From assembly GCF_021155765.1 (NCBI RefSeq), contig NC_060113.1, positions 5,347,001 to 5,411,000 of the forward strand: a stretch of 64,000 bases of DNA, written 5' to 3'. The notes below the pieces were generated by a model. The model saw only the letters and a program-made list of their open reading frames with translations. It was not told the origin of the DNA and made no database searches. The DNA is from Diprion similis (lineage: Eukaryota > Arthropoda > Insecta > Hymenoptera > Diprionidae). This document shows, piece by piece, positions 35,396-55,221 of this stretch; position 1 is the first letter of the stretch; each line of letters opens with the position of its first letter. Made by a program: the position numbers and the translations under genes.

Positions 35396-36628
35396 ATGGT
35401 GAGCATAGAATTATTCATTTCCTCAAACTATCTGTAAACAACTATAGACTTATTTTCTAATTACTTGAATACTCTGAACTTCTGAGCTCGGAACAGAAAT
35501 AGGTTAGAATACCTCTATTGATGCATTGTCATCCATACAGTTATTCCATCTAATTTCAATAAAAATTCCCCATAGCTCCAGATGTATCCACCTCAGTATT
35601 GTTTGTTGCGAAAATGTTCAGCCCTCTAATCGAGAAAAGGCTACTAAGTGAAAATAAACCGTAGCAACGATGCGACTAATTGGCGCATCGTCATGCTGAC
35701 TGTAATCCAAAACTCACCACGTACCATTGTAATTCATTCCCAATTATTTCTCGATTTGTTGATCAGGCTCGCCGGTATGATACCAGAACAACTATATTCT
35801 CACCAGAGGGACGGCTATACCAAGTGGAATATGCAATGGAAGCTATAAGTCACGCTGGTACCTGTTTAGGAATCCTGGCTAATGACGGAATCTTACTAGC
35901 CGCAGAAAGAAGAAACACCAACAAGCTGTTGGATGAAGTATTTTTCTCAGAAAAAATCTATAAACTAAATGAGGATATGGTTTGCTCTGTCGCCGGAGTG
36001 ACATCTGATGCAAACGTCCTAACTAACGAGCTCCGCTTAATCGGTCAAAGATACCTACTCCAATACGGTGAAACCATTCCTTGTGAGCAACTGGTTTCTT
36101 GGCTTTGTGATGTCAAACAAGCCTACACTCAATACGGAGGTAAACGACCGTTCGGAGTTTCCATACTCTACATGGGTTGGGACCGGCATTACGGTTATCA
36201 GCTCTACCAGTCAGATCCTAGTGGTAATTACAGCGGCTGGAAAGCTACCTGTATTGGCAACAATTCGGCAGCAGCTGTGTCTTCTCTCAAACAGGAATAT
36301 CAAGAGGGAGAAACTACTTTGAAAGACGCAATGGCTCTTGCGATTAAAGTTCTCTCAAAAACTCTAGATATGACTAAACTCTCCTCTGACAAAGGTCAGT
36401 TGAAGCTTCTCAATTGTTGAATTGAGTTTGGTGGAAGGAGCAACAACTGTTCATTCTCCATATTAATACTGTATTTTTGTTATAGTCGAGATGGCAACTC
36501 TAACTCGTGAAGATGGAAAAACAAAGACTCGTATTCTACCAGCATCTGAAGTGGAGGCATTGGTTGCTGAACATGATCGACTAGAAGCACTTGCTGAACA
36601 GGCAAAGAAGGAAAAGCAAAAACTGTAA
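35396..36628 (+). CDS. Prosalpha3/PSMA4: 20S proteasome subunit alpha type-4 (PSMA4), complete
   Basis: Exons are 35396-35398 (the ATG alone), 35767-36394 and 36486-36628, giving 257 residues. It is an outer-ring subunit of the 20S proteasome, without catalytic residues of its own. The N-terminal alpha signature is intact ([19 protein letters not shown], then VEYAME), followed by the NTN-hydrolase fold. The charged C-terminus ends in [10 protein letters not shown], as is typical for alpha4. The start was placed on the isolated ATG because the signature begins immediately at the acceptor GATCAG and needs an initiator. ATG followed by GTGAGC gives M+ARRYD in phase, matching the family's N-terminus. 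Human PSMA4 is 261 residues. A longer in-frame extension into the intron exists but lacks similarity. Confidence 0.95.
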
Positions 36629-36737
36629 AATATCAAACTATCGAATTTTTATTACTTATTAATTCATAGTGAATAATGATTATTTGATTACGTGAACTTG
36701 AGCATCTGGCGTAAGTGATAAATAGCTTACATTTTTG

Positions 36738-36743
36738 AATAAA
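36738..36743 (+). terminator. Poly(A) signal of PSMA4
   Basis: AATAAA 110 bases after the PSMA4 stop codon. A minus-strand AATAAA at 36648-36653 may serve the convergent ERMP1 gene. Confidence 0.6.
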
Positions 36744-37272
36744 AATGAATTACAATAAGCATTCCTTTTCTCCTATAATTGCACACGTTGCCGCACTTCA
36801 TACTTATAACAGTCATTGATTCATTCATCATAACGTCTTTTGAAAATAACAAGGTAACTCAGCATCTTTTTTAGAATCTCTTTAGTGATGTAACATTTAT
36901 CGTATTTAATAAGAATGGGGACTGATGCTGTCAAAAAATGTTGTCGAAACTTTTTAATGTCATGTAGTGTGTTGGGTCCCCCAAACCTTTGATTCCGACT
37001 AAATATCGGACATACTAACTCACATTTATACTGGTATGAAACTATGATATCTCTTACTATTAACACTGAAAGCTATTACATACTGATGGTTCACCTTTCT
37101 TATTCCAGAAAAGTTTTCCCAAAATCACAATAGTCTTATCTTTTCAAGTTAAGTTTTAAAGCTTCATGTCAAGTCGTATACTCCAAGTTAATTTAACTAC
37201 CAATATTCAAGTTGTGTTCTCAGGCCCCAGTTCAATAAAATAACCAGTAACTAAAATAAAACTTTCTTTTTT
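36744..37272. other. Spacer between convergent PSMA4 and ERMP1
   Basis: Contains no gene that I can support; probably ERMP1 3' untranslated sequence on the minus strand. Confidence 0.55.
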
Positions 37273-40200
37273 CTAAAAAATATAAGATTTGTAAGTAGAT
37301 GACCAATGAAGTGGAGCAACCCACAGTGGCAACTGTTTGAGAATAGAGGCATAAGGTGTGCTCGCACTTGTCGTGTTATGCACATAATGAGCATTTAGAG
37401 AGATATCAATAACTGGATTTACTCCATCTGCAACCTGTAAGAAAATAATGGTAGATTGAATTTTATATTTGAATTAAAAACCAAATAACTATTAAACTAT
37501 TGGAAAAAAAAAACATGATAAAACACTCACCACTAAGTCTAACCAAATTTCCACAGCAGTTTCCGGTTCTACAGCATAGTCGTGAAGCACAAAGTAAACC
37601 GATCTCCCATTCCACATAGTTGACGTAGGAACTTCTTCGAGCAATGACCAGTTGGATAAAGTTACGCCGTCTCTCGGTGCAAACACCAGACTCATATGGT
37701 CGGGCCCTGTTAAATTCAGGTACAACCGCCTTGATTCTGTAGTTGTGTCATTCCAAACACCTAAAAGTGCCGATGGTTGATACAACTGAACGGTTGGCAC
37801 TTCACTTGGTATCCAAAAGCTCTTATTTCTGAAATGAAGTAATAATGTAACATAATTATGTACTTTCTGACATACTGGGCTTTAATCTACATTGCTTGAA
37901 ACATGTCTTTCCAACGTAAAAAATACTTCTGAATAGCATTATAACTCACAACATGCCCATGTCTCTACCCTTCCAGATTGGAAGTCCACAGTAGATTGTA
38001 TCCAGGCACGCATCTGCTACAGTTGTAGCATTGCTGTATTCAGATATGTATTTCTCAACTGTTCTCGGACCGTTCCGATCTAGATTTTGAATCCAGAATC
38101 CCCCATCATTATATGTCACATTCCCATTAATATCATACATAGTTCTTTCCGTATGCTGAAATCACATGTTCAGGTTATATTAGTGAGTTGTAAGGAGTTT
38201 GCACTGTGATTCAGTGAAACTAAAAAGACTTGAATAAGTAAATTTGACAGCGACTTACAATAAGCCAAAACCGTTGTGGCTTTGGACTTGTGAGATCAAC
38301 TGTGTATGGAAAACCATATGTTGTGACAGTAGCTGCTAAGACAGTGATAACAGCAGCTAATGAAAATCCAAGTACTAAAACCTGCGGCCTTCGAACGACA
38401 GCTATCAAAGGTGCCCAAAAACTGCCGATCATTGAAGTTACCACAGCCATAATCAGGGATATGTAGAGATCAGGAGTGATTTGAGACCCTGATCTTCCCA
38501 TTATTGGTAAAAAACTGGTCAGCATTGATCCGAGCCACAGCAAATACAGAGTTGGAATGAACAACCCCACACCGATAAAAATCGCGAGCCAAACTCTGAC
38601 TGAAAGTGAAGACAATATGAAAAATGGATAATTCGATGATTAAACTTTCATTGGGCAAATTTTCTTATTTCTAGTCATCCTCAAGATGTAAGCACTATCT
38701 GAAATGAACGTAAAGTTGTGACCTTCTCAAGATTTTGTGCAAATCGCTTAATCAGATTAACTATCAGACATTGAACGAATGTACAGAGATCATATAGTTT
38801 GCAAATACATTCAAAGAATATAGACTTATTGAAGATTGAAATTTGGAGTATTAAGATTTCTAGTACACTAACCAAGTCTTTGCAGTTTGAATATTGAAGT
38901 AATAATGTTGGCTGCAGATACAAATCCAACAATTATAGCTATTACATATGCTGATTTCAAACCATAAATTGTCAATGCAATTAAAATGATTGCCCATAAC
39001 ATTCCTACAGCCTGTGTGTTTAGCTGTACTCGTTGTCCAGTACCTAAACGGTTCTGAAAATGAAATGCCTCTATAAGTACTAACGCATTAAAATTGCTGT
39101 CTGTGAAACTAACTTATTTACCTGGTCAAATGAAATTCTTTTTAAAAATATTGTTAAAGGTCATTCTTTGTAGCAAATTATTTAATAATATTATCAACTT
39201 TTATTAATCGATTCAATTTCTATAAAATAAAAAATTAACCAAAATTGCCGAACTAACTGAGATCACCTGCTCTATAGGTTGAGCAGTCAGTGCCCAATTA
39301 ACACCCAGCATCGGAATCATAGTCGGTGCAACGAATAATCCAATCAATAGCCCTGGATTACTGTACCAGCTCATTGCATTGTCTGTCCAGTCAAGCAGCA
39401 TGCCAAAAAAGACAGAGAGTCCAAGTCCTAATAGAATCCCCAATATCTGGAAGGACAAGCTTATTCCAAGGCTTTTTGCCGTGTCTTTGATGCTGCACCC
39501 GGGAATTGGCCAAAAGGGTGAAGCAAGGGCCAAAAGTGCTGTCAGTGCGTTCAGTATAATCGCAATCGTGGTTGAATATCGAATAACGAACAATCCCAGG
39601 AAATCATAGTATACTGAACTACCCTCGACAGAACTTTCCAAAAGTTCTGGTGCGTTACCTAGGGCTTTAATTAGTGCCAGCATGTTGTCTCCGGTGTGTT
39701 GATAGCATCCGTCTGGGATTATTTGATAATCATCATACAGCGTGTGGTAAACGTGGCCACCTGCATAATAGGCCATATCCAGGCCATGAAGGTTTCCAAA
39801 ATCTCGGAATATCCTAAAATCGGTATCAGATGGGACCAAGCCACTCTCAAACAAGTCGGTAAGAACTGCTGATGCATGGGGGTGAGGAGCAGCGGAGGCA
39901 TAATATGCGTCAAGCCACGGATCTTTTGGACCAGATTGAAAAAGTGCTTCTCTACCGCCAAATCCTGCCGAATCATAGTTGAGGAATACGCGTACGTCTG
40001 CCGCCCAACGATGAGTAGTTACAAAGGCGTGAGATGCTTGCAATGGATTTTCTTCGGCACCGTTGAACAGAAAAATGATGTCGTGAGTCAATGTAGTTTG
40101 ACTTTGGGATAAAACTCTAAGTACTTCGAGCATTGCTGCACAGTTTATGCCATTGTCACTTGCACCCGGACTGGAAGGATGCGAATCATAATGACAATTC

Positions 40201-42592
40201 ACTAGTAGAGCCACACTGGAATTATCTCCATCCGACAATCTAGCGATCACATTGCCAACATTGAGGTAAACGTTCGTAAACGAACGACGATTGGATATAA
40301 AATAAGCACCACTACCTCTTGCGACATCAATTTGGACAGTCTTGTTATTTGTCACTTCGGCCTGAATTTCTTGTAAAAGATTGCTCAAGTATTCCACAGC
40401 AAGAACTTCATTCTCATAACTACCAACTATCTTCTCTCCTATTTCTGCCAACCCAGTTAAATCAGACTTAGCTCTCTCGGTGATAAAGAGATCTTTGCCA
40501 GCTACTAAGTCATTGACTGTAAGTGGCGTTGGCAATCCGTTGTAGAGGTAATGATGTAACGTCATATTGATTAACAATATCAACAATATCGCCAGACCAC
40601 ACCACAAACTTGGTATTAAATCCTTTTTCTTTCTCTCCTCATCATAGTCAGAACTATCTGACGTCACAGCATAAATGGCTTCGTTACGGCGTGGTAGCTT
40701 CACCATGCTGTATACCGGGTCCTCACGAGTACGCCTGTAGCGTGCGTCTGTTCTTCTCTTTGGATCCTACAAAATTTGATCGGGGGAAAAATATTACTGA
40801 AAATTCTACATGCTTCAACTTGAAAAAAATGAGCTCAAAAAAGCAAAGTAGCTGTTAGTCCTTCAGTTCTTTTAAGTTAGCACATGAAAAAAGTTGAACG
40901 ACGCCCTCCTTCACACTCAACTGAATCACGTTATCACCAATTGAATTGCCTATTTAAACTGAATTGGATAGAACCAGACTGGTTGTCGATCATACGACTA
41001 ACGAACATCAAGATTCGTGTATGCTTTTGATTTTTACAATGACTATCAACTACTCTTTGATAATCTAACCGATATTTTCAATCGCTAAGAACAAAATATA
41101 ATCGTGATGAATCCCGATCTTCATAGACTGAGGAACCAATTTTTTAAACTAGTATCTGATGTTGTCAATTTGATTACATTATCTGTAGTGACAAAGCCAG
41201 AGGGTAATAGCCCATTATAAATTATACGGATTAACTTATTTGGAATGGTATCGTAGCAGGTTGTTATTGTAAAATTTTGTTACATCAAGGGTATTCTATT
41301 GAGCGACATGCAGCATTTTTCAAGTGCAATAAAGATCGGACTTATTGACAGTATCAGAATTACACGGAAAGATTTAGTGTTCAAGAGATTCTATCCTCAG
41401 TAATGAGTTGTCCTAATCATAGCACCACATGATATTCAAGTAAAGAATTATAAAAAAAACTTGTAATAAGTCACTCCTTGTCTTCGTATAAACCAATAAC
41501 TATCAGTGTAACTTTCTTTCAATAAAAGTGAATTACGTTTTGTTTCATTGGACAAAGGATAAGTGCATAATCATCACAATGTGTTAAACATTTGTGAAGC
41601 TGCTATCAATATAGCATTCAAAAAATCAATCTATCATCTTTACAAGGATAAATGATTATCTCAATTATTCATTATGTACCATAAATTATATAATCTTGTT
41701 TTATTTATTCTTCCATCTCATTTCATTCTTGATTCAATTCCTATAGATTTAAAATTTAATTTTTCCAGTCCACAATGACATCTACTTTCAGTTTATTTTT
41801 AGATTAAACTAGTTATTTTTTCTTCTCTAACAAAACTATCACACTTTTGAAGTTGTGTAGATCCACTTTAGATTTTCAAGATCGTGATAACATCAGCGAT
41901 TGTAAGTACTGTTACTATTTCTGTAAAATAGCAAATGCGATGAAGTGTAAGATTATCGCACATGATAATCATGTTCTGCCAAATACGTATAAGACTTTGA
42001 TGACATGTGAATTTTGTTGTGCAGCTTCGTGAAAGAAGTTTCATATGCACGATGTTAGATTACTGATAATATAGGATATTAATCAAATTCTAAAATCGAT
42101 TTTCTTGATCAAACATGTAAATGAATAATCATTTGAATCAACATTGAACCGAGTTTTTTTCTGCAACATTTCATGGAATGATGAAAATGCTCATTTCAAT
42201 ATACTTATGATATGAGTAGTAGGTACAGGTGAATGGAATGTATGTACACACATTTTGGTCCATCATAACTGTACATACTTCTTATATTAAAAAATTTAAT
42301 GATAAAGGTGTATTTGTAACAGGCAAAATATTTATCACTGATTGTGTACTCATGTTTTAAGGTGTGACCAATAATTTTTTAACAAAAATGTAATAATTCT
42401 TAGCACAAAAATTACGGAAGATAATCTGTAGTGAAACTGTAGAATATGTGCTAAAATTTTTAGTAATAGTGAATATTGCAACCGCTGATTTTATTTCCTA
42501 GTCATGTATATACGTAGGTAAATGTTATGTATAATATGCCTCGGCATGGAACGTTGCATCGTTATCTTTTCTATCGATCAACTTACCGCCAT
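37273..42592 (-). CDS. ERMP1: Endoplasmic reticulum metallopeptidase 1 (M28 family), first exon tentative
   Basis: Firm coding exons (minus) are 40766-39267, 39053-38873, 38599-38259, 38155-37950, 37828-37531 and 37434-37273. The frame opens at an acceptor before DPKRRTDARYRR. A two-codon first exon at 42592-42587 (ATGGCG then GTAAGT) would join in phase and give 897 residues, close to human ERMP1 (904). The alternative is the internal ATG at 40706 (875 residues). An N-terminal membrane segment precedes a lumenal M28 zinc-peptidase domain. Ligand motifs are CHYDSH, GASDNG, NGAEEN (catalytic Glu plus ligand), NYDSAG and YHTLYDD. Several more membrane segments follow, then a lumenal C-terminal domain. 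The family is ER-resident (Felix-ina in rodents); the substrate is not established. The gene is convergent with PSMA4. Confidence 0.93.
40767..42586. other. Putative ERMP1 intron 1: no gene
   Basis: AT-rich sequence with no recognised exon, RNA or mobile element. Confidence 0.5.
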
Positions 42593-43014
42593 TACCACTT
42601 ATGGAAATTCTTCAGGTAATAAAAAGAAGAAAATAATTTGCGTAAAATCGTAGGAATGCAGAAGCGCTGCAGTGGCGGTGGTTTTAAATTATTTCAAACC
42701 CCGAAAATTCATTCTACGTTACTGAGAAGAAAAATGTCAATATTGTAACAACAAAGAAGCATCAAGACGTTTGAAACCGGTGGATTGAAACAGTGGTTCG
42801 CCAGCGTCGTTGGCTGAAGTCATCGTTTAATCATCACAGTTCGATCCGGCTGTGGTTAGCACGTGATAAAATCCTGACTCGAGGAAGTAAAGTAAAAGCG
42901 ACCGAATTCGGTGAACCATAGACTAAATTAACACAATGCTTTCGAAATGAGTAAGCAGCCGGTTCCATCGACTCTTCACAGAAAACATTTGCCTTCTGTG
43001 ATTGCAGTTTTCCC

Positions 43015-43056
43015 CACAGATTTCTGTTACGCAAACGCTTTGTATAGAAATCTGTG
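43015..43056. repeat. Small hairpin, perfect 11-bp stem
   Basis: CACAGATTTCT at 43015-43025 pairs with AGAAATCTGTG at 43046-43056 across a 20-base loop. GTTTTCCCC flanks it on both sides in direct orientation. Confidence 0.7.
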
Positions 43057-44704
43057 AGTTTTCCCCGACAATTTGCTAATACATACATTATTGTCAACCA
43101 TTTTTTCTCCATAGAGGTCGAATCGACCTTGAGAGTAAGGTGTGGTAAAGTATCTGGCCCTACACGTAGATTGCTATCTTTCTCCCTCTTGCGGCGCACG
43201 CGCGGTCGAAATTAAATAAATGAGAGTCTGCTATACGTCGATGAATTTAACCAATCAAAATATCGGTAGCGTTACAGCAGTCGTGTTCTGCATTGCCGGT
43301 AGAGCCTGTTGAAACTGTCGGTAACATTATTATCGATCTGGATACTATGATGTCGATGTTTTTATGAACAAAGTTTTCGATTCTGGTCTTATACCAAATT
43401 TCTCTTAAAACGTATTTCATTGCATTCAAGCTTGTGAATGAGTCGTGAAAAATCGAAAGATTCCCATGACATTCCGTTCGTGATTTTCAAATCTACGACT
43501 GGCGCTGCGACATGCAAAATCTGGCTGTGTTGTGCGCAACTCCCGTGCGCAGGTTAGTCCAACCAATCGATACCGGTCTTCGGCGTACCGGTCAAAAACG
43601 CGAGAGCAAATCACGCAGCGCTCATTCCGCTCCAGTCAGTGCTCGGTGGCAGTCGCGTCGGAAGAGTAAAGTTTGCTCAGATTCAAATAGCTCGACGAGA
43701 GCTGCGCACTTCAGTGTTGTAGAATCCAAATCGCAGTGTTATAATCAGTGCATATTTCTGGAAATTTAAATTCGGTAATTACTACGTAAGATGCAGAAAA
43801 GTGGCTCAGAGAATCAAAGTATTACTAACATCAAAATGGTCTACAATTGTTGAAGGTGAGTTACATTCATCCCATTTAACCATCGTGCGTGTAAGTTGAA
43901 GTTGCCTCTGTCCGCAGGATGTTGTGTTTTGTTTTTTGCCCGCACATTTTTGGTAACCACTCGATATCAACTGATGAAAAAAAAATGTAATCTCGATCAT
44001 TCTTCAGAATAATCCAACATGCATATTACTTTTTCTATTGCAATGAGGAGATACGTTGATTGTATGGTGAATTGGCTTGATAAAACAGACCTTGCGATGG
44101 ATGACCTTTGTTTGAATTAGTATTTCTCACTTCAGATCGCACATAACGCTCTCACAGGTCTATAAAATCCAATTATCGCGTATAGGTCACTTCAGCACAG
44201 ATTTTTGCGTATTGAAAACAAGTTAGATGAAAAAAAATAGTGTCGGTCGAGCTTAAGGATTCATTGTTTACATACCTATAGTGGCGCTTATGTGGCGGCT
44301 GGTGCAGCTTACCTTTCGAAAACATACCGAGATTCGTGTTTATCACTGTGAGTGTTTCCTTGAATTCCAAATCAGCAAATTCATTTTCCTTTGCGTTTCT
44401 TTCTGATGATCGATATTATAATACGTCGTTTCATATTCTATTATATTATCTTCTTTCAGAAGTTCATATACTACGACGTTACTTATTTTCGGATTTCAAA
44501 TACCTCGTACGTTCGGCAGCTTAGTTTTCTCGTTTTAAAATTATAATCTTATTATATGTCTGACAACGACGAAGTATATAACGGTAAAAACCAAGGAACG
44601 TAAACGTTTAATTATTCTCTAATCATGGTATTATTTTTTCTGAAAATGGTATAAAAGTTAAATTTTGCTTGATTAGTGGATCGATAAAGTTATATCGCGG
44701 TATC

Positions 44705-44910
44705 TTACCTGTTTACAGAAACGAACTACAATAACATTGATTGGTGTTAGCGATTATCTGGATCGAGTGACCCTATCCATGAATTTTGAAAATGAGATAT
44801 TAACAAAATCTGGTGTTTTATCTGATTACAGAAATAAACTGTAGCAAGACTAATCGAGGTTCGCGATTATTTGAATTGAGATCAGCAATGAACATCGAAA
44901 AATAAAACGC
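44705..44910. repeat. Diverged tandem duplication, about 110 bp
   Basis: Copy 1 (about 44705-44795) and copy 2 (about 44816-44905) share TTACAGAAA-GAACT/TAAACT, GCGATTAT-TG-AT-GAG and a final ATGAA-(T)-AAAAT, in order. Identity looks like 65-70 percent by eye. Confidence 0.5.
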
Positions 44911-45242
44911 AACATGTGACCGAGCCGCTGTTGAAATATAAAAAAGCAGGTACATACATGATCAAGATCATTTTCGATTACACTATCACGCTAAATTCAC
45001 CCTAAGAAAGTTGACCCTTTTAGTTGAAATTCAATATTATTCACTCTTTAATTACGTTTCATGAAAATGGTAGTAATTTTCAATGCTTTCTATGATTTAT
45101 TCTGTGGTTCATGTATCGGTGCATGAAAAATTACTGAATTTTATAAAAAAAAAAAAATTGTTTGAAATAGACAGTTTCTGATGAAACGAAATCTGATCCA
45201 AGTATGTTACATGAGTATTATTCTGTTATATTCTTATTGCAG

Positions 45243-45332
45243 TGTCAAAAGTGCTTCACTTCACGATTGAACCTGAGATCTACCAGAACTACTACATCTG
45301 AAGTATGGAGCAGCCCGGAGGAGGTGAAAATT
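45243..45332 (+). CDS. Candidate orphan first coding exon (MEQPGGGENW...)
   Basis: A good acceptor (TTATTGCAG) ends at 45242 and a good donor (GTGAGT) begins at 45333. Between them is ATG at 45306 followed by MEQPGGGEN and a split Trp/Cys codon. This looks like the start of a protein whose later exons I cannot find in the next 4.7 kb. A leader exon ending at 43854 is possible. If the gene is real, its remaining exons lie either beyond the plus-strand neighbours, which would then be nested, or in sequence I failed to recognise. No product can be named. Confidence 0.35.
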
Positions 45333-46754
45333 GGTGAGTTTGCATGTGTTTAGGTTACGGATATTTCCCTGGTTTTCCCTGTCACGTGGCGTGGCGGTAA
45401 CAATAATATTACATCAATCTTCGATTTCTTAGCTGCATGGGTAGGCTCATTCGCAATCGCAACGGTGCTTGACTTTCATTTGAATCTTTCTTTTTTGCAC
45501 TTGGATTTACCTTAGCTTACTTAAAGTTAGAAATTTTGCACGTTGCTAAATGTGGAATGAGCATCGCGACAGGTAACCATCACTCATTCGCAAATCACAA
45601 GATCGAATCGTGTTTCGCTACTGATGTAATAATCTAGATTTGAATTTAACAATTATGTCGTTTAAGTGGTGGTTTCACCTGAGGTCTGAATGTATTCAGT
45701 TATTCACATTATTGTTGAATTGATGAAACTACAAAGTTCAGCATAAAGTAACGTAATGAAATTGTATTTTATATTATGAATCATTTTCAATTTTTTAACA
45801 AGCAAAAAGTATCTGTCAGATGTAAGCTTAGCTCGTTTAGAAAAATGCTGATTGGCATACAGGATGTTTTTAATCCATTTTACAAAAGGTTGATGTACCG
45901 ATAGTCTGCCGGTATTTTCTAAAATAATGCATACAATATTAGAGTTGGCGTGATACAACCGCGATACTGTATTCTGAGTTGACGGACTATGGTACAAAAA
46001 CATTTTGCTCCCTACAGGTAATCAACGAAAAAGTAAGTGACAGTGACCACGGCGCGAATGTGGAAGAACGATGTGTGTTGGAAAAAATGGAGAATCGTTT
46101 AGATCGAATATAGGTAACCGGGTAGGTAGGTGGTCGTTTTGGGATCCGTCGCGGGGGTTGATGTGGATGTGCGTGTGAATCGTTTTTCAACATTTCCGTT
46201 GGGTGGTTCCGTTGGGAATCAGGCGAGGGTAGGAAGGTCGCGATGTACCGTGATGTGACTAACTTTTGTAATCCACAGCGTCAAACTATCACAGAAATTT
46301 AATCCCGAAACAATTGAAAGACTCTGTATCTGAGTCTAGACTATTTATCAGTATTTGAATATTAAGAAGGTTGAAATTTTAATTTATTGTACTCTGCAAT
46401 TATTTACCAGCTGTTATTCAATTCAATTATTCAGTCATTATCCATCATTATTTTATTCAATTAATCTCTGTGATCGTTTGAATGGGCAAAACTCATCTCT
46501 GGACTATCTATCGCGTTCCGTGGTACGCTAGATAGGGAGAGATGCTGAGCTCGAAGACTTCGCGTCGAAGAGGACCGCCGACCGTCACGCCACACAATAA
46601 TGCATGCTTTCCAACCTCCCTCCCGAACTTGATTCGTATCTGAGAACAACAACCCGCATCGCAGTGTATCTGATTTGAAAAAACGTAGATGTGGATTGGG
46701 TTTCTACAGATTTTTTACGACAAGTTCTAAATATAAGAAACTTTTTGACAATTC
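45333..46754. other. No gene recognised
   Basis: Mixed AT-rich sequence. Open frames on the minus strand (for example around 46461-46652) lack similarity to anything I know. Confidence 0.5.
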
Positions 46755-47040
46755 ATTCGATTGCGCCTTTCTGTGCGCCGAGTAATCACTGAAACCGGAC
46801 GCACTTTTAATGCGATAATTGATAATGCGAATCGATTGCTCGTGCCTTTTGCGCATCGATTTTGCTAATAGTACGTGGGAAAGTGAAGCATATGCTTAGC
46901 TTTCAGCTGATGAGTCAATTTTCTTATCAACACACAAGTTTTCAAGTTTGACCGCGCCTTTTGCGCGTCCACTTGATACTTTGTGGTTATGAGAGAAAGC
47001 GCGGCATATATAAGCCGGTACTCAACGCGCGCGGATAAAA
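46755..47040 (+). promoter_or_regulatory. TATA promoter-like block with repeated GC palindromes
   Basis: CATATATAAG at 47005-47014 is a canonical TATA element in a GC-rich setting, with an initiator-like CTCAACG about 20-25 bases on. Upstream are three variants of one imperfect palindrome: TTGCGCCTTTCTGTGCGCC (about 46764-46782), CGTGCCTTTTGCGCATCG (46841-46858) and CGCGCCTTTTGCGCGTCC (about 46953-46970). An AP-1-like TGAGTCA lies at 46911-46917 and a palindrome AAGCATATGCTT at 46886-46897. No protein-coding frame with an ATG follows, so any product is unknown and may be noncoding. Confidence 0.5.
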
Positions 47041-47370
47041 ATCGCAGAGTGTATATTGATAGTGAAGAACCTTAGCCTCAGTATTTATGAAATACATCTG
47101 AGGTATATAAACATTTTTTTTTTTTTAACCACGGTATTACTTTTTCTTCCAGGACAACAAAGCAATTTTTTTTACAAGTACACTGATACCTATAAATTCC
47201 AGTCGAACAAAATATTTATTTCAATAACTCTTGGTGAGAAATAGATAATGATAAATAAATAGATGATTAAAAAAATAAGGAATTTGTTGTCATTATTAAA
47301 AATCATCGAGTTAAATTTTGTTGCCGCGAATATCATGTTGGACTCACTGGAATCACTGTACTTGTAGCAA
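47041..47370. other. Region between promoter-like block and minisatellite
   Basis: AT-rich; the only open frame starts at TTG, not ATG. Two acceptor-like sites (TTCTTCCAG ending at 47152 and AATTCCAG ending at 47202) are present. If the TATA block is active this is the 5' part of its transcript. Confidence 0.4.
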
Positions 47371-48510
47371 CTTCCTCTGTTTCAGCTAATCAAACCTTTC
47401 ATCTGTTTTAGCTTATTAAACCTTTTATATGTTTCGGCTAATCAAACCTTTCTTCTGTTTCAGTTATTAAACCTTTTCTCTATTTCAGCTAATCAAACCT
47501 TTCCTCTGTTTCAGCTAACTAAACCTTTTATCTGTTTCAGCTTATCAAACTTTTCCTCTGTTTCTGCTAATAAAACCTTTCCTCTGTTTTAGCTAACTAA
47601 ACCTTTTGTCTGTTTCAGCTTATCAAACTTTTCCTTTGTTTCTGCTAATAAAACCTTTCCTCTGTTTCAGCTAATTAAACTTTTTATCTGTTTCAGCTTA
47701 TTAAACTTTTCCCCTTGTTTCTGCTAATCAAACTTTTCCTCTGTTTCAGCTAATTGAACATTTGTCTGTTTCAGCTCATCAAACTTTTCCTCTGTTCATG
47801 CTAATCAAACCTTTTCTCTGTTTCAGCTAACTAAACCTTTTATCTGTTTCAGCTTATTAAACTTTTCCTCTGTTTCTGCTAATAAAACCTTTTCTCTGTT
47901 TCAGCTAATCAAACTTTTCCTTTGTTTCAGCTAATTGAATATTTGTCTGTTTCAGCTCATCAAACTTTTCCTCTGTTCATGCTAATCAAACCTTTTCTCT
48001 GTTTCAGCTAACTAAACCTTTTATCTGTTTCAGCTTATTAAACTTTTCCTCTGTTTCTGCTAATAAAACCTTTTCTCTGTTTCAGCTAATCAAACTTTTC
48101 CTTTGTTTCAGCTAATTGAACATTTGTCTGTTTCAGCTCATCAAACTTTTCCTCTGTTCATGCTAATCAAACCTTTTCTCTGTTTCAGCTAACTAAACCT
48201 TTTATCTGTTTCAGCTTATTAAACTTTTCCTCTGTTTCTGCTAATAAAACATTTTCTCTGTTTCAGCTAATCAAACTTTTCCTTTGTTTCAGCTAATTGA
48301 ACATTTGTCTGTTTCAGCTAATCAAATCTTTTCTCTGCTTCAGCTAATCAAACGTTTTCTCTATTTCAGCCAATTAAACCTTTTGTCTGTTTCAGCTAAT
48401 TAAACCTTTCCTCTGTTACAAGCTAATTAAACCTTTTGTCTATTTCAGCTAATCAAACTTTTCTTCTGTTTCAACTAATCAAACTTCTCTTCTGTTTCAG
48501 CTAATCAATT
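47371..48510. repeat. Minisatellite whose unit mimics a 3' splice site
   Basis: About 43 tandem units of about 26 bases. The consensus is CTAATCAAA followed by CCTTTTCTCTGTTTCAG. On the plus strand every unit carries a branch-point-like CTAAT or CTAAC, a pyrimidine tract and CAG, with 20-23 bases between the branch A and the AG. Some units have lost the AG (TTTCTG, TTCATG). Within 47751-48300 the units are arranged in a 181-bp higher-order period. It does not encode protein and is not CRISPR: there are no unique spacers. Confidence 0.95.
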
Positions 48511-49299
48511 TTCCCTTTTTATCACCAATCATAATTCATATGTGTATAATTTATTAGTATGTATGTAGTATAACTGTCTATTAGTATGTACTAACATTGA
48601 GAATGTCATTAATTACAACGTGAAAATTAAATGCCAACGACTCAACTAATAAACAAAGCATTTTTCTGTCATGTGTCTCAATTGTAAGTGACAAATCGTA
48701 ATGATTGACATCTAGTTGGTTGTCGTATTTTGGAGTACAAAAAAGTAATCTGAAACTGTCTATTTGAGTCAGTTACATTTTTCGTTTTCACGGTGTAAAA
48801 TTTAAAATATTATTCTATCCGCAAATTCTGGGCTTACAGTTAAAGTGAACACAGAAACTTATTATTAAGATTTCCTTGAAACTTTTTTGTTATTTTCTCG
48901 TTTTATTTTAAAATAGAATTTCATGCCAAGTTGTTGATCATGGTTTTATTGATACTCCTTCATAAATTTTTCGTTTTGAATCAAACTGTAGAATTCTGAA
49001 GATCTTACGTTTTGTGGTGATTGGGATTCTTCTTCCCCTCTTCCTTCTCTCATTATTTGTATTGCATACAAAAACAAATTTATCAATGTCGTTGAGATCA
49101 ATTTTACATTTCTTCTTCGTGGAGTAGGCCTACTGGGGATACCACGTTTAAAAAAAACGCACTGAATGCTCTACCCCTAGTGGTGGTGTGGAAACGAGCT
49201 GTCACTATTATATTTATATGAAATTTTAACAAATATATTATTATAGTTATGATTGTCTTCATCTTCTTAAGGACATATACACAAGATTGAAAGGGATTT

Positions 49300-49733
49300 T
49301 AATTGAATTATATTATTAGAATGTATCGTTACAATTGTTATATGAATCTTATAATCTTTTAAGCAACTGGACTTTTTTAGAATAATCATCTTTCATACTG
49401 TCAACTAAATGCTGTTTTATTTCAAATATAAACCACTCAATGCTGGAACATGAATTTAATCAAAACTACCTTAAATGTGTACATATTTATTATTTATATT
49501 AATATATTTTAATTGAGTTATATTGTCACAATTTATTGTTACAATTTATTGTTACAATTTATTGTTACAATTGTTATATAGATCTTAAACTCTTTTGAGC
49601 AACTGGACTTTTTTTAGAATAATCATCTTCTATATTTTGTCAACTAAATGCTGTTATTTTTTTCAAGTATAAATTACCCAACGTTTGACCATGAATCTAA
49701 TTAAAACTACCTTAAATATGTACAATTTACTAT
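49300..49733. repeat. Diverged direct duplication, about 200 bp
   Basis: 49300-49496 and 49509-49733 share, in order, AGCAACTGGACTTTTTTAGA, ATAATCATCTT, GTCAACTAAATGCTGTT, TAAAACTACCTTAAAT-TGTAC. The second copy contains the extra 13-bp tandem. Confidence 0.85.
49528..49571. repeat. 13-bp tandem repeat (ACAATTTATTGTT)
   Basis: Three consecutive units of ACAATTTATTGTT and a partial fourth. Each unit is itself close to palindromic. Confidence 0.9.
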
Positions 49734-49855
49734 TGCAACTGACTGTGGTCAGAGCGTATTTTGAATCTGCCGGGGTGCGCCGTATTCCTATTGGTCGAGA
49801 ACTCTGTATCGTAAAAATTCAGCCTATGTAGTACTCACACTCTTCGGGTTCTGGA

Positions 49856-49870
49856 TTAGGTTAGGTTAGG
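49856..49870 (+). repeat. Three TTAGG units
   Basis: TTAGG repeated three times, the canonical insect telomeric unit, about 195 bases upstream of the EF-Tu start codon. Too short to be called a telomere relic; it could equally be a promoter motif. Confidence 0.8.
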
Positions 49871-50064
49871 ATAAGTGAAGTTTGATTCTGAAAGGCTGGA
49901 GCAGGCTGGAGATCGTCGGTAGCTCTATGGTGCGCTGATCTCAGCTGATCTCGATATCCAGTCTATGCTGCACACGGACTTAGTTCTGCATGATGTCAAA
50001 AACAAGATGAGAGGTTATCTAACCCTAAACTCGTTCAAATGTTGGTAAAATAAATAAGGACATC

Positions 50065-51695
50065 ATGCGTGGAATCAATAACTTGGCCCGTGTTGTTTTA
50101 TCCGTTAAATCGATAAACGTGCAAAGATGGAATTCGAAAAAGTTTTACACTTTGAGTAATAAGTTGTTAAATGTACGTTCGCCGTTCGGCATAACCTCTC
50201 GTCTCTTTTCTGAAAAAGCTGACGATACAGAGAAGATTTGTAATGTTGGAACGATAGGTCACGTAGATCATGGGAAAACTACTTTGACAGCTGCTATAAC
50301 TAAGGTTCTATCCTCCGAAAACGAATATTCCAAATATGTATCTTACGGTGAAATAGACAAGGCACCCGAAGAGAAGGCTAGGGGTATAACTATCAATATT
50401 GCACACGTTGGATACAGGACAAAAGCAAGGCGCTATGCTCACACCGATTGTCCTGGTCATTTAGACTTTGTCAAAAATATGATTAGTGGAGCTTCACAAA
50501 TGGACGGTGCAATATTGGTAGTTGCAGCTACCGATGGCACAATGCCACAGACTCGAGAACACTTACTTCTAGCTAAACAAGTTGGAATAAAAGAGATTGT
50601 CGTTTTCATAAATAAGGTAAAACTGAATTTAAAAAATTTCACTAAGATGGTCGAATAAATTTCAAATATCATCTTAAATATAGAACAATGAACTTTCCAT
50701 GTTTAGGCAGACATTGCAGATATGGAAATGGTAGAACTAGTTGAGATTGAAACCAGGGAATTACTGACAGAAATTGGATTCGATGGAATTAATAGTCCTG
50801 TCGTATATGGGTCTGCACTCCTAGCTATCCAAGGAGATATGTCAGATCTTGGAGTTCCTTCTGTCAGAAAGCTGCTTGATACTCTAGACAGTTATATCAC
50901 GACTCCTACACGGGATTATAAATCACCATTTATCTTACCCATAGATAATGCTTTCACAGTTCCTGGTAGAGGTACGGTTATTGTAGGTACTCTGAAGCAG
51001 GGAACATTGAAAAAGAATGCTAATGCCAGTCTACTTGGCTTTGACGAACAGATTCCGACCACTGTTGGAGATATGCAGGTAAACCAAAAGAGTAAACCGG
51101 TAGATACTGTTTGCTAAGGTTTTACGATATGAATCTTAAACCTGTGTATAGATTTTCAAACAAAGTGTTCTAGAAGCAAAAGCAGGAGAAAATGTTGGAG
51201 TTTTAATTCGTGGCATTAAAATCAGTAGAGTTCAAACAGGCATGCTTCTGTGCGCAGCCAACTCACTGTCTATCAGCAATCACTATGCAGCCCAAATATA
51301 TTTATTAACTAGACATGAAGGTGGGCGGAAAAAACCGATGCAGGTATTGCAAAAAAATATGGAGATAATATTTTTAAGATATTTATATTTGAATTAACAT
51401 TTTAACTTGACTCATTTTCAAATAGGCTTCCGGATATATTCAACCATTGTATAGCTCTACATGGCACATAACATGTCGAGTTGATCTCAAGTTAACCAAT
51501 GGCACCGAGCTACTGATGCCTGGAGAACATGCAGAGGCAAGACTAACGTTAATGAAAAAAATGCCGGTTTTGGAGGGACAAGCGTTTACTATTCGAGAAA
51601 ATAAATGTACTGTAATAACTGGAATCATCACTAAGAAATTGGAAAGTATTCGAGTTATTAACAGAAAACTTAAAAAGCTACAGTTTCCTGAATGA
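50065..51695 (+). CDS. mEFTu2/TUFM: Mitochondrial elongation factor Tu, divergent form
   Basis: Exons are 50065-50616, 50707-51078, 51152-51343 and 51426-51695 (461 residues). EF-Tu carries aminoacyl-tRNA to the mitochondrial ribosome as a GTP complex. The first 50 or so residues are basic and hydroxylated, fitting a mitochondrial presequence. GTPase motifs are intact: GHVDHGKT 65-72, DCPGH 128-132 (with the catalytic His) and NKAD 183-186. Domains 2 and 3 follow. Sequence after PGH is unusual: [17 protein letters not shown] where ordinary EF-Tu has HADYVKNM. Domain 3 is strongly diverged and ends in a basic tail ([12 protein letters not shown]). This fits a second, fast-evolving insect mitochondrial EF-Tu; the assignment to mEFTu2 rather than mEFTu1 is an inference. 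It is convergent with ATP synthase alpha. Confidence 0.9.
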
Positions 51696-52396
51696 AAGAA
51701 AAGAATATTTTATTATCACTGCACAGTGACTTGATAAATCTAATCACTGATTATGAAATTGATCTGTGATTATGTACCAACGCGATGTACCTCCACGTAA
51801 TTAATTTATGCCAGCATATAGCAGAATTGCATTTTAATTGCAATTTACATCATCTCATTTTCAGTGAAAAGGAATTGTAATATATTAACATTTCAACGAT
51901 GTTTGCGAGTGTATCAATAAAATGTTATAGTTGCGAATTATAAATTTCCCGATTATCTTTTGACAAAAATACAATCATTCACGTAATACTGAACTATGAA
52001 TAAATAGTAAATAGGTAAGTGTAAATGAAAATATAACAATAGTGGATACTTTACATTTTATTAAAGTCCAACATGTAACGTACAGTATGTATTTGTTTGA
52101 CTATCGTGTTATTTATCGTTCGAATGTGGAATTATTTTTCATTTATCAAATTCTTGTGTATCCTCACTTGGTTCTCACAGGATTGGCTCCTCATTAAACC
52201 TTTTTCGATCAGTTATATTACAAATCTAATCTCTTAATACAGGCTGCCAACAGAGCGCAAATAACATGTATTTTCATATAAAAAATTGAACAAAAGTACA
52301 CGGTATCTGGACCAGTTATTTGCAGAACGCAACCTAAGACAAGTGGTTACTTAGCTAGTGATGGCTTTGAACTGATGTCTGGTGTTGAATATTAAC
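51696..52396. other. 3' spacer between EF-Tu and ATP synthase alpha
   Basis: Plus-strand AATAAA at 51916-51921 suits EF-Tu. Minus-strand AATAAA (plus TTTATT) at 52057-52062 suits ATP synthase alpha. Here the two signals do not force an overlap. No gene seen. Confidence 0.6.

Positions 52397-55221
<2,825 letters not shown>

Follow-up and report, generated by a model that had tools for sequence, protein, structure and literature searches.

In humans, intron 18 of ABCA7 is reported to contain a VNTR whose 25-bp unit begins with a splice donor. This repeat has about 12 to 427 units and affects splicing (PMC5954066). In Drosophila, the lncRNA gene hsr-omega is described as an exon-intron-exon arrangement followed by long tandem repeats of 280 bp; its RNA sequesters RNA-binding proteins, and the locus also carries a microRNA gene (PMC9865238). 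Another kind of repeat RNA is the human PNCTR, a long tandem-repeat noncoding RNA made by RNA polymerase I and bearing PTBP1 motifs (PMC6224606). In Drosophila virilis, tandem repeats have been provided by Tetris, a foldback DNA transposon (PMC4079207). The VNTR of MIR137HG was also considered as a precedent and was set aside, as its novel splice donors are said to lie in the pre-miRNA and not in the repeat (PMC6692358). The ABCA7 VNTR, hsr-omega and PNCTR can be regarded as precedents for the locus discussed here. As described in the available portions of these papers, none of them is a minisatellite whose unit resembles a splice acceptor, and no such minisatellite was seen in the titles and abstract openings of the matches listed for repeats with splice signals or factor decoys. 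A preliminary description of the locus had stated that no system of this kind was known. This goes too far, since the ABCA7 intron-18 VNTR, on the part of its account available, repeats a splice donor (PMC5954066).

The locus lies in a 64,000-nucleotide stretch of the genome of Diprion similis, referred to here as the window. Like the ABCA7 VNTR, it holds a short-unit minisatellite with a splice signal in the unit and a variable length, whereas the ABCA7 unit is a donor, belongs to one protein-coding gene and has splicing effects that were measured, as far as that source describes them (PMC5954066). With hsr-omega it shares a noncoding nature and a putative exon-intron-exon arrangement followed by tandem repeats; hsr-omega, however, is described as one gene with 280-bp repeats, while in the present case a signature of the core occurs at 88 dispersed or clustered places and the repeats are of 26 bp (PMC9865238). 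PNCTR is similar in being a tandem-repeat noncoding sequence with many pyrimidine-type protein-binding motifs, which in the present case are predicted, but no unit resembling a 3' splice site is described for it in the text available (PMC6224606). Like Tetris, the present element is dispersed and carries tandem repeats; unlike Tetris as described there, it has no long inverted terminal repeats, and its core is conserved in splice sites and RNA structure (PMC4079207).

Repeat detection places the 26-bp tandem array at 47372-48508 on the plus strand, with 43.8 copies and 79% matches, and unit alignment gives the consensus TCTGTTTCAGCTAATCAAACCTTTTC. The position, period and copy number of about 43 in the preliminary description are borne out. 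When the unit forms TCTGTTTCAG and CTAATCAAACCTTTTC are read head to tail, CTNAY stands 22 nt before YAG, with a pyrimidine-rich tract in between. The branch-point-like motifs number 42 in the window array (CTAAT 27, CTTAT 7, CTAAC 5 and CTCAT 3). YAG is intact in 32 of the 44 units, one unit has AAG, and AG is absent from 11 (TTTCTG in 6, TTCATG in 3, TTTCGG and TTTCAA in 1 each). The resemblance to a 3' splice site on the plus strand holds, but the claim that every unit is a complete 3' splice site was an overstatement, with 12 of the 44 units lacking YAG. The array also has a second period of 181 bp (6.3 copies, seven units each). This higher-order repeat occupies approximately 47740-48307 on the plus strand, where the identity of units seven apart is 0.89, against 0.78-0.83 at lags of 1 to 6. 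Two of its seven unit types, TTTCTG and TTCATG, have no AG, and several copies of both broken types in the window array were made by the higher-order repeat.

A 3' splice-site matrix approximating insect frequencies, which were taken from general knowledge, was used to score the AGs, together with branch-point and AG-exclusion conditions. A threshold of 6 bits is reached by 17 of the array's 33 AGs on the plus strand, by none of the 161 on its minus strand and, with both strands counted, by 19 of 6533 outside the array. At 7 bits or more, the counts are 1 of 33 and 6 of 6533, and at 8 bits or more, 0 of 33 and 4 of 6533. The array AGs are therefore moderate and not top-class acceptors by matrix score. 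A random 26-mer set in tandem passes 6 bits in 0.1% of 20,000 trials with the composition of the window and in 1.0% of 5,000 trials with that of the array. Since the units descend from one, the acceptor-like array represents one unlikely event and not 44. The density of acceptor-like sites in it is far above background and stems from a single ancestral unit.

The array is part of a dispersed noncoding element and not a free satellite. Homology among genome copies places the element at approximately 43231-49901 on the plus strand, and the array and both of its flanks recur together across the 269-Mb genome of 60 contigs. A 2-kb left piece was found at 20 places at 89-100% identity, including the window, and at 20 more at 78-84%, these being the best 40 of 120 candidates. 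Matches to the right piece lie at 19 places, again counting the window, with weak ones at others. With the array itself as query, 55 match rows at 76-100% identity were obtained from the best 40 of 71 candidates. An exact 16-mer of the unit occurs 234 times in the genome (114 forward, 120 reverse), and its reversed control is absent. Among the 100 of these 234 matches that were listed, all 19 array places are in the same orientation as a core copy, and the nearest core lies upstream in 15 of the 19. The other four are in tandem clusters, where the core of the neighbouring unit is nearer and another core lies about 5 kb upstream. The preliminary description had asked whether copies elsewhere sit at intron ends or in random orientation. 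The orientation is not random, all 19 places being on the core strand, and the copies belong to one element and do not represent independent intron ends.

No terminal repeats of at least 30 nt were found in 36000-54000, which contains only two weak internal inverted pairs, and an alignment of 15 copies shows ragged left ends, with sequence farther upstream shared by four of them. A mobile element with long terminal repeats was rejected on these grounds; shorter repeats are possible. In five copies (L049, L050, L058, L065 and L066), insertions that start with a CAGGGTGGCGA-like and end with an TCGCCACCCTG-like sequence are visible by eye between the core and the array position. They probably represent a separate inverted-repeat mobile element, with ends that are degenerate in some copies. 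A viral origin was also considered and dropped: the exact 24-nt signature of the core (46584-46607, plus strand) is absent from viral contigs, where an exact 17-mer of the unit gave two single matches.

The window copy of the element shows nothing that convincingly codes for protein. No stop-to-stop ORF of at least 120 aa exists in its 43231-49901, and, of 13 ORFs of 63-105 aa compared with Pfam, 12 are without a match at the E limits applied and one has a sub-threshold match at E 0.018. Neither a transposase nor a reverse transcriptase was seen in this copy by ORF scan and Pfam. Two tandem clusters were each scanned over roughly a single unit for ORFs of at least 100 aa: L045 has none and L046 has four, of 102-131 aa. 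Outside the element, a 125-aa ORF at 42834-43211 on the minus strand resembles Circovir2_Orf1 of Pfam (E 0.00011, 22.6 bits against a cut-off of 27.9). Pfam also identifies EF-Tu, proteasome and ATP synthase genes near the element.

Diverged copies of the element are found in tandem clusters, as in the case of six cores on contig C1 at a spacing of about 10.27 kb (C1:10219867-10271226). Others lie at C2:5890680-5912060 (about 7.12 kb) and C2:7618485-7635555 (about 8.52 kb). TTAGG repeats were observed at the start of contig C1, in keeping with an insect-like genome. On the 3' side of the array, a box at 49101-49200 (plus strand) is conserved at 0.94-0.98 identity among about 17 copies. It has no extra folding stability as a whole against shuffles (z 0.80), and it recurs elsewhere at 82-86% identity, at some single sites but chiefly in clusters on C2, C11 and C12. 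The L046 cluster, on C2, shares only this box with the element (window 49118-49198). It contains a minisatellite with a 117-bp unit and TTTTTTCAG twice per unit (L046:653-3722), followed by 143-bp and 36-bp repeats. Repeat search and copy comparison show tandem repeats of about 240 bp at the right end of the element (49306-49734, plus strand), with a number that varies between copies.

The core-bearing element is more unusual than the array itself. Over most of the core, which lies on the plus strand at 45210-47000, the mean pairwise identity among 18 aligned close copies is 0.86-0.98, with gaps counted as differences. It dips to 0.73-0.84 at about 46298-46417, and the flanks are lower than the core (0.52-0.82 on the left and 0.64-0.89 on the right). 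A genome search with the 24-nt signature, allowing up to two mismatches, gave 88 places (72 exact, 14 with one mismatch and 2 with two) and none for the reversed control. Of 43 copies tried, 42 could be aligned, and in these a block of about 128 nt hardly varies. A reading frame through this block was considered and dropped, as a stop or loss of frame is visible by eye in some copies; by eye also, the variable columns show no preference for third codon positions.

The core also carries conserved splice-site letters. A putative exon at 45243-45333 on the plus strand is bounded by an acceptor CAG (45240-45242) and a donor GTGAGT (45334-45339), neither of which is broken at any of the 22 independent loci in which this region could be located. 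Near this exon, the diverged copies L027, L045, L047 and L048 have about 200-290 bp of extra sequence, which would consist of a GT-AG intron and a further exon; the window copy lacks it. An attempt to read the 45243-45333 exon as zinc-finger-like coding sequence was given up in view of non-triplet indels, which occur in the putative exons of the copies. Just 5' of the array, a candidate acceptor CAG at 47150-47152 (plus strand) was read by eye from the alignment. Among correctly aligned copies, all 11 close ones retain its AG, as do 10 of the 11 diverged ones, the exception being L068. Transcription of the element family from the plus strand is plausible, with indirect support from the acceptor and donor of the 45243-45333 exon that are intact at the 22 loci.

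Three predicted RNA hairpins lie in the core on the plus strand. Hairpin 1 (46494-46544) has a z of -1.92 in the window copy, and one of its pairs is changed on both sides among 39 distinct rows (CG 18, UA 13, AU 1, unpaired 6, gap 1). Hairpin 2 (46627-46725), a long stem resembling a pre-miRNA, has a z of -2.98 in the window copy and of -5.47, -5.48 and -6.92 in the diverged copies L050, L061 and L058. The third (46936-46981, z -4.03) has a GCGCCTTTTGCGC-type tip, and a similar motif occurs again upstream. In the first two, 95.6% of cells are paired, a share that drops to 28-49% if the pairing is shifted by one to three columns, and their changes on both sides amount to 25 cells against 10.3 in shuffles, none of 500 shuffles being as high. 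The number of pairs with a change on both sides (5; 201 of 500 shuffles as high) and that of further pair types (21; 171 of 500) do not exceed shuffles, and the covariation is therefore only moderate and may reflect few events. Two further candidate hairpin regions show no extra stability (z -1.14 and -0.08), and a 146-nt block taken whole is no more stable than shuffles (z 0.86). The element has no Rfam match at gathering score; the sole match at E up to 5, snoZ107_R87 (E 3.3, 18.7 bits against 50), was taken as chance.

The units of the array were also compared across loci. The statistics cover 33 arrays, some of them clipped at the fetched ends, with 1,015 full units, 793 of which have YAG. 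YAG is kept in 631 of the 826 units at the 18 close loci, the family of the window, and in 162 of the 189 units at the 15 other loci. In the window's family, conservation of the AG pair is 0.798 against a median of 0.849, placing it only 17th of 24 adjacent pairs. At the other loci it is 0.899 against 0.757, rank 2 of 24. Preferential conservation of the AG is thus not supported in the window's family, and the AG is better kept in the diverged group. Unit types with a broken AG have been amplified, TTTCTGCT in 47 units at 9 loci and TTTATGCT in 38 units at 10 loci. Units are hardly more alike within than between arrays (0.812 and 0.803, and 0.747 and 0.738 in the second group), so that the arrays are old, with units that drift separately and are little homogenised.

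It is probable, on balance, that the array is an old, intron-end-like minisatellite, mostly a tolerated passenger towards the 3' end of an apparently spliced noncoding family that is dispersed in many copies. This reading is supported by the 234 unit matches, with all 19 listed array places on the core strand, and by the low rank of the AG pair in the window's family, the amplification of broken-AG units and the separate drift of the units. It is also supported by the variable array length and by the poorly shared 3' flank of the array among the close copies. The element family would be transcribed from the plus strand, and the first unit may have come from an intron end, or from a chance intron-end-like sequence, in a family transcript. 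Slippage and unequal exchange would then have multiplied it. The splice-acceptor look of the array would be mainly heritage, single units serving at times as cryptic acceptors or binding proteins of the U2AF or PTB type, and the functional part of the element would be the structured core upstream of the array. The preliminary description had offered a neutral satellite as its alternative, and it is this alternative that is favoured.

Several points count against the passenger reading. One is the high rank of the AG pair at the 15 other loci, along with contrasts, bootstrapped over loci, that are above zero in both groups for the four core splice letters. These contrasts are small and include G10 with a single control position: +0.027 (CI 0.017-0.038) in the window family, where A9 alone is below its controls, and +0.060 (CI 0.026-0.092) at the other loci. 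The branch-point T.A, at rank 3 of 23 in the window family and rank 7 at the other loci, is a further such point. Nor is an origin of the unit from a neighbouring acceptor demonstrated. Compared with the flanks of the window, the unit aligns no better than chance (76 of 300 shuffles as good). Against the acceptor regions of diverged copies, the likeness is clear in L028 (0 of 300 shuffles), L047 (4 of 300) and L058 (10 of 300) and not clear in the other six of nine (29 to 189 of 300). Duplication of a neighbouring acceptor was therefore set aside as not significant in the window and suggestive in three of nine diverged copies. As for the position near a 3' end, AATAAA occurs within roughly 120 bp 3' of the array in three of seven aligned diverged copies (L028, L051 and L061), so that a predicted transcript may have its 3' end close to the array.

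A protein-binding role is possible, given that the AG is better kept in the diverged copies and the pyrimidine tract is constant. In its full form, the proposal holds that SF1-, U2AF- and PTB-type sites in the array act as a platform or decoy that titrates factors, slows splicing or retains the transcript in the nucleus, working like hsr-omega or PNCTR, with the AG dispensable in some units. We regard it as unlikely. The pyrimidine tract, with 0.96 and 0.94 Y in the two locus groups, speaks for it, as does the rank of the branch-point T.A in the window family, 3 of 23. It also agrees with the fact that the array and the conserved splice sites share a strand, with the total of 1,015 units and 793 YAGs, and with the resemblance of the gene plan, exon-intron-exon and then tandem repeats, to that of hsr-omega as far as the source describes it (PMC9865238). 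It is opposed by the array size, which among complete arrays spans 5 to 55 units, from 34 to 55 in the close family and from 5 to 34 at the other loci. Moreover, 10 of 20 further copies have no array within the 1.55-kb stretch examined, some having one farther away, and the AG is not favoured in the window family. A broader version, in which the 88 signature places would be a family of spliced, structured ncRNA genes whose transcripts end in an SF1/U2AF/PTB-binding array that regulates factor supply or nuclear retention, is rather improbable.

The preliminary description had also considered the array as a source of many isoforms. An upstream donor would then be spliced to varying units, and such an array of alternative acceptors seems very doubtful. 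A GTAAGT donor does stand near the array in 10 of 11 correctly aligned diverged copies, about 70-75 nt upstream of the 47150 acceptor (near 47.08 kb), and it is in the diverged group that the AG pair ranks 2 of 24. However, this donor is absent from all 11 correctly aligned close copies. The 47150 acceptor, upstream of the array and kept in both groups, would compete with the units. In the diverged group, the share of intact AGs does not track the donor, with 82 of 95 units at 10 loci that have the donor and 80 of 94 at five where it is missing or unaligned. Comparison of the close copies gave no conserved exon end or donor 3' of the array to which the units could be spliced. The sole strong donor on that side (48684) is confined, among these copies, to the window copy and L010, and in 9 of the 17 remaining close copies the sequence does not become similar to the window's 3' flank before 48591.

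A role at the DNA level, with the TAATC and TAATTA of the unit, which we take to be homeodomain-like sites, bound as such, or with the array as a spacer or terminator of the element and the splice look incidental, is highly improbable: positions 14-15 of the TAAT stretch are among the better kept in the window family (0.958 and 0.964 of distinct variants), but position 15 falls to only 0.646 in the diverged group, and binding sites do not need the single strand relative to the core found at all 19 places among the 100 of 234 matches listed.

The element matters even if the array is a passenger, for its near-invariant block of about 128 nt, its hairpins and its dozens of dispersed and tandem copies. 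It stands as an unusual noncoding family of this sawfly, with neither convincing coding content nor an Rfam match, and it can be traced by ordinary RNA sequencing. A functional array, for its part, would amount to a titration of early spliceosome factors that occurs naturally in vivo, and counting units would be a way to test it.
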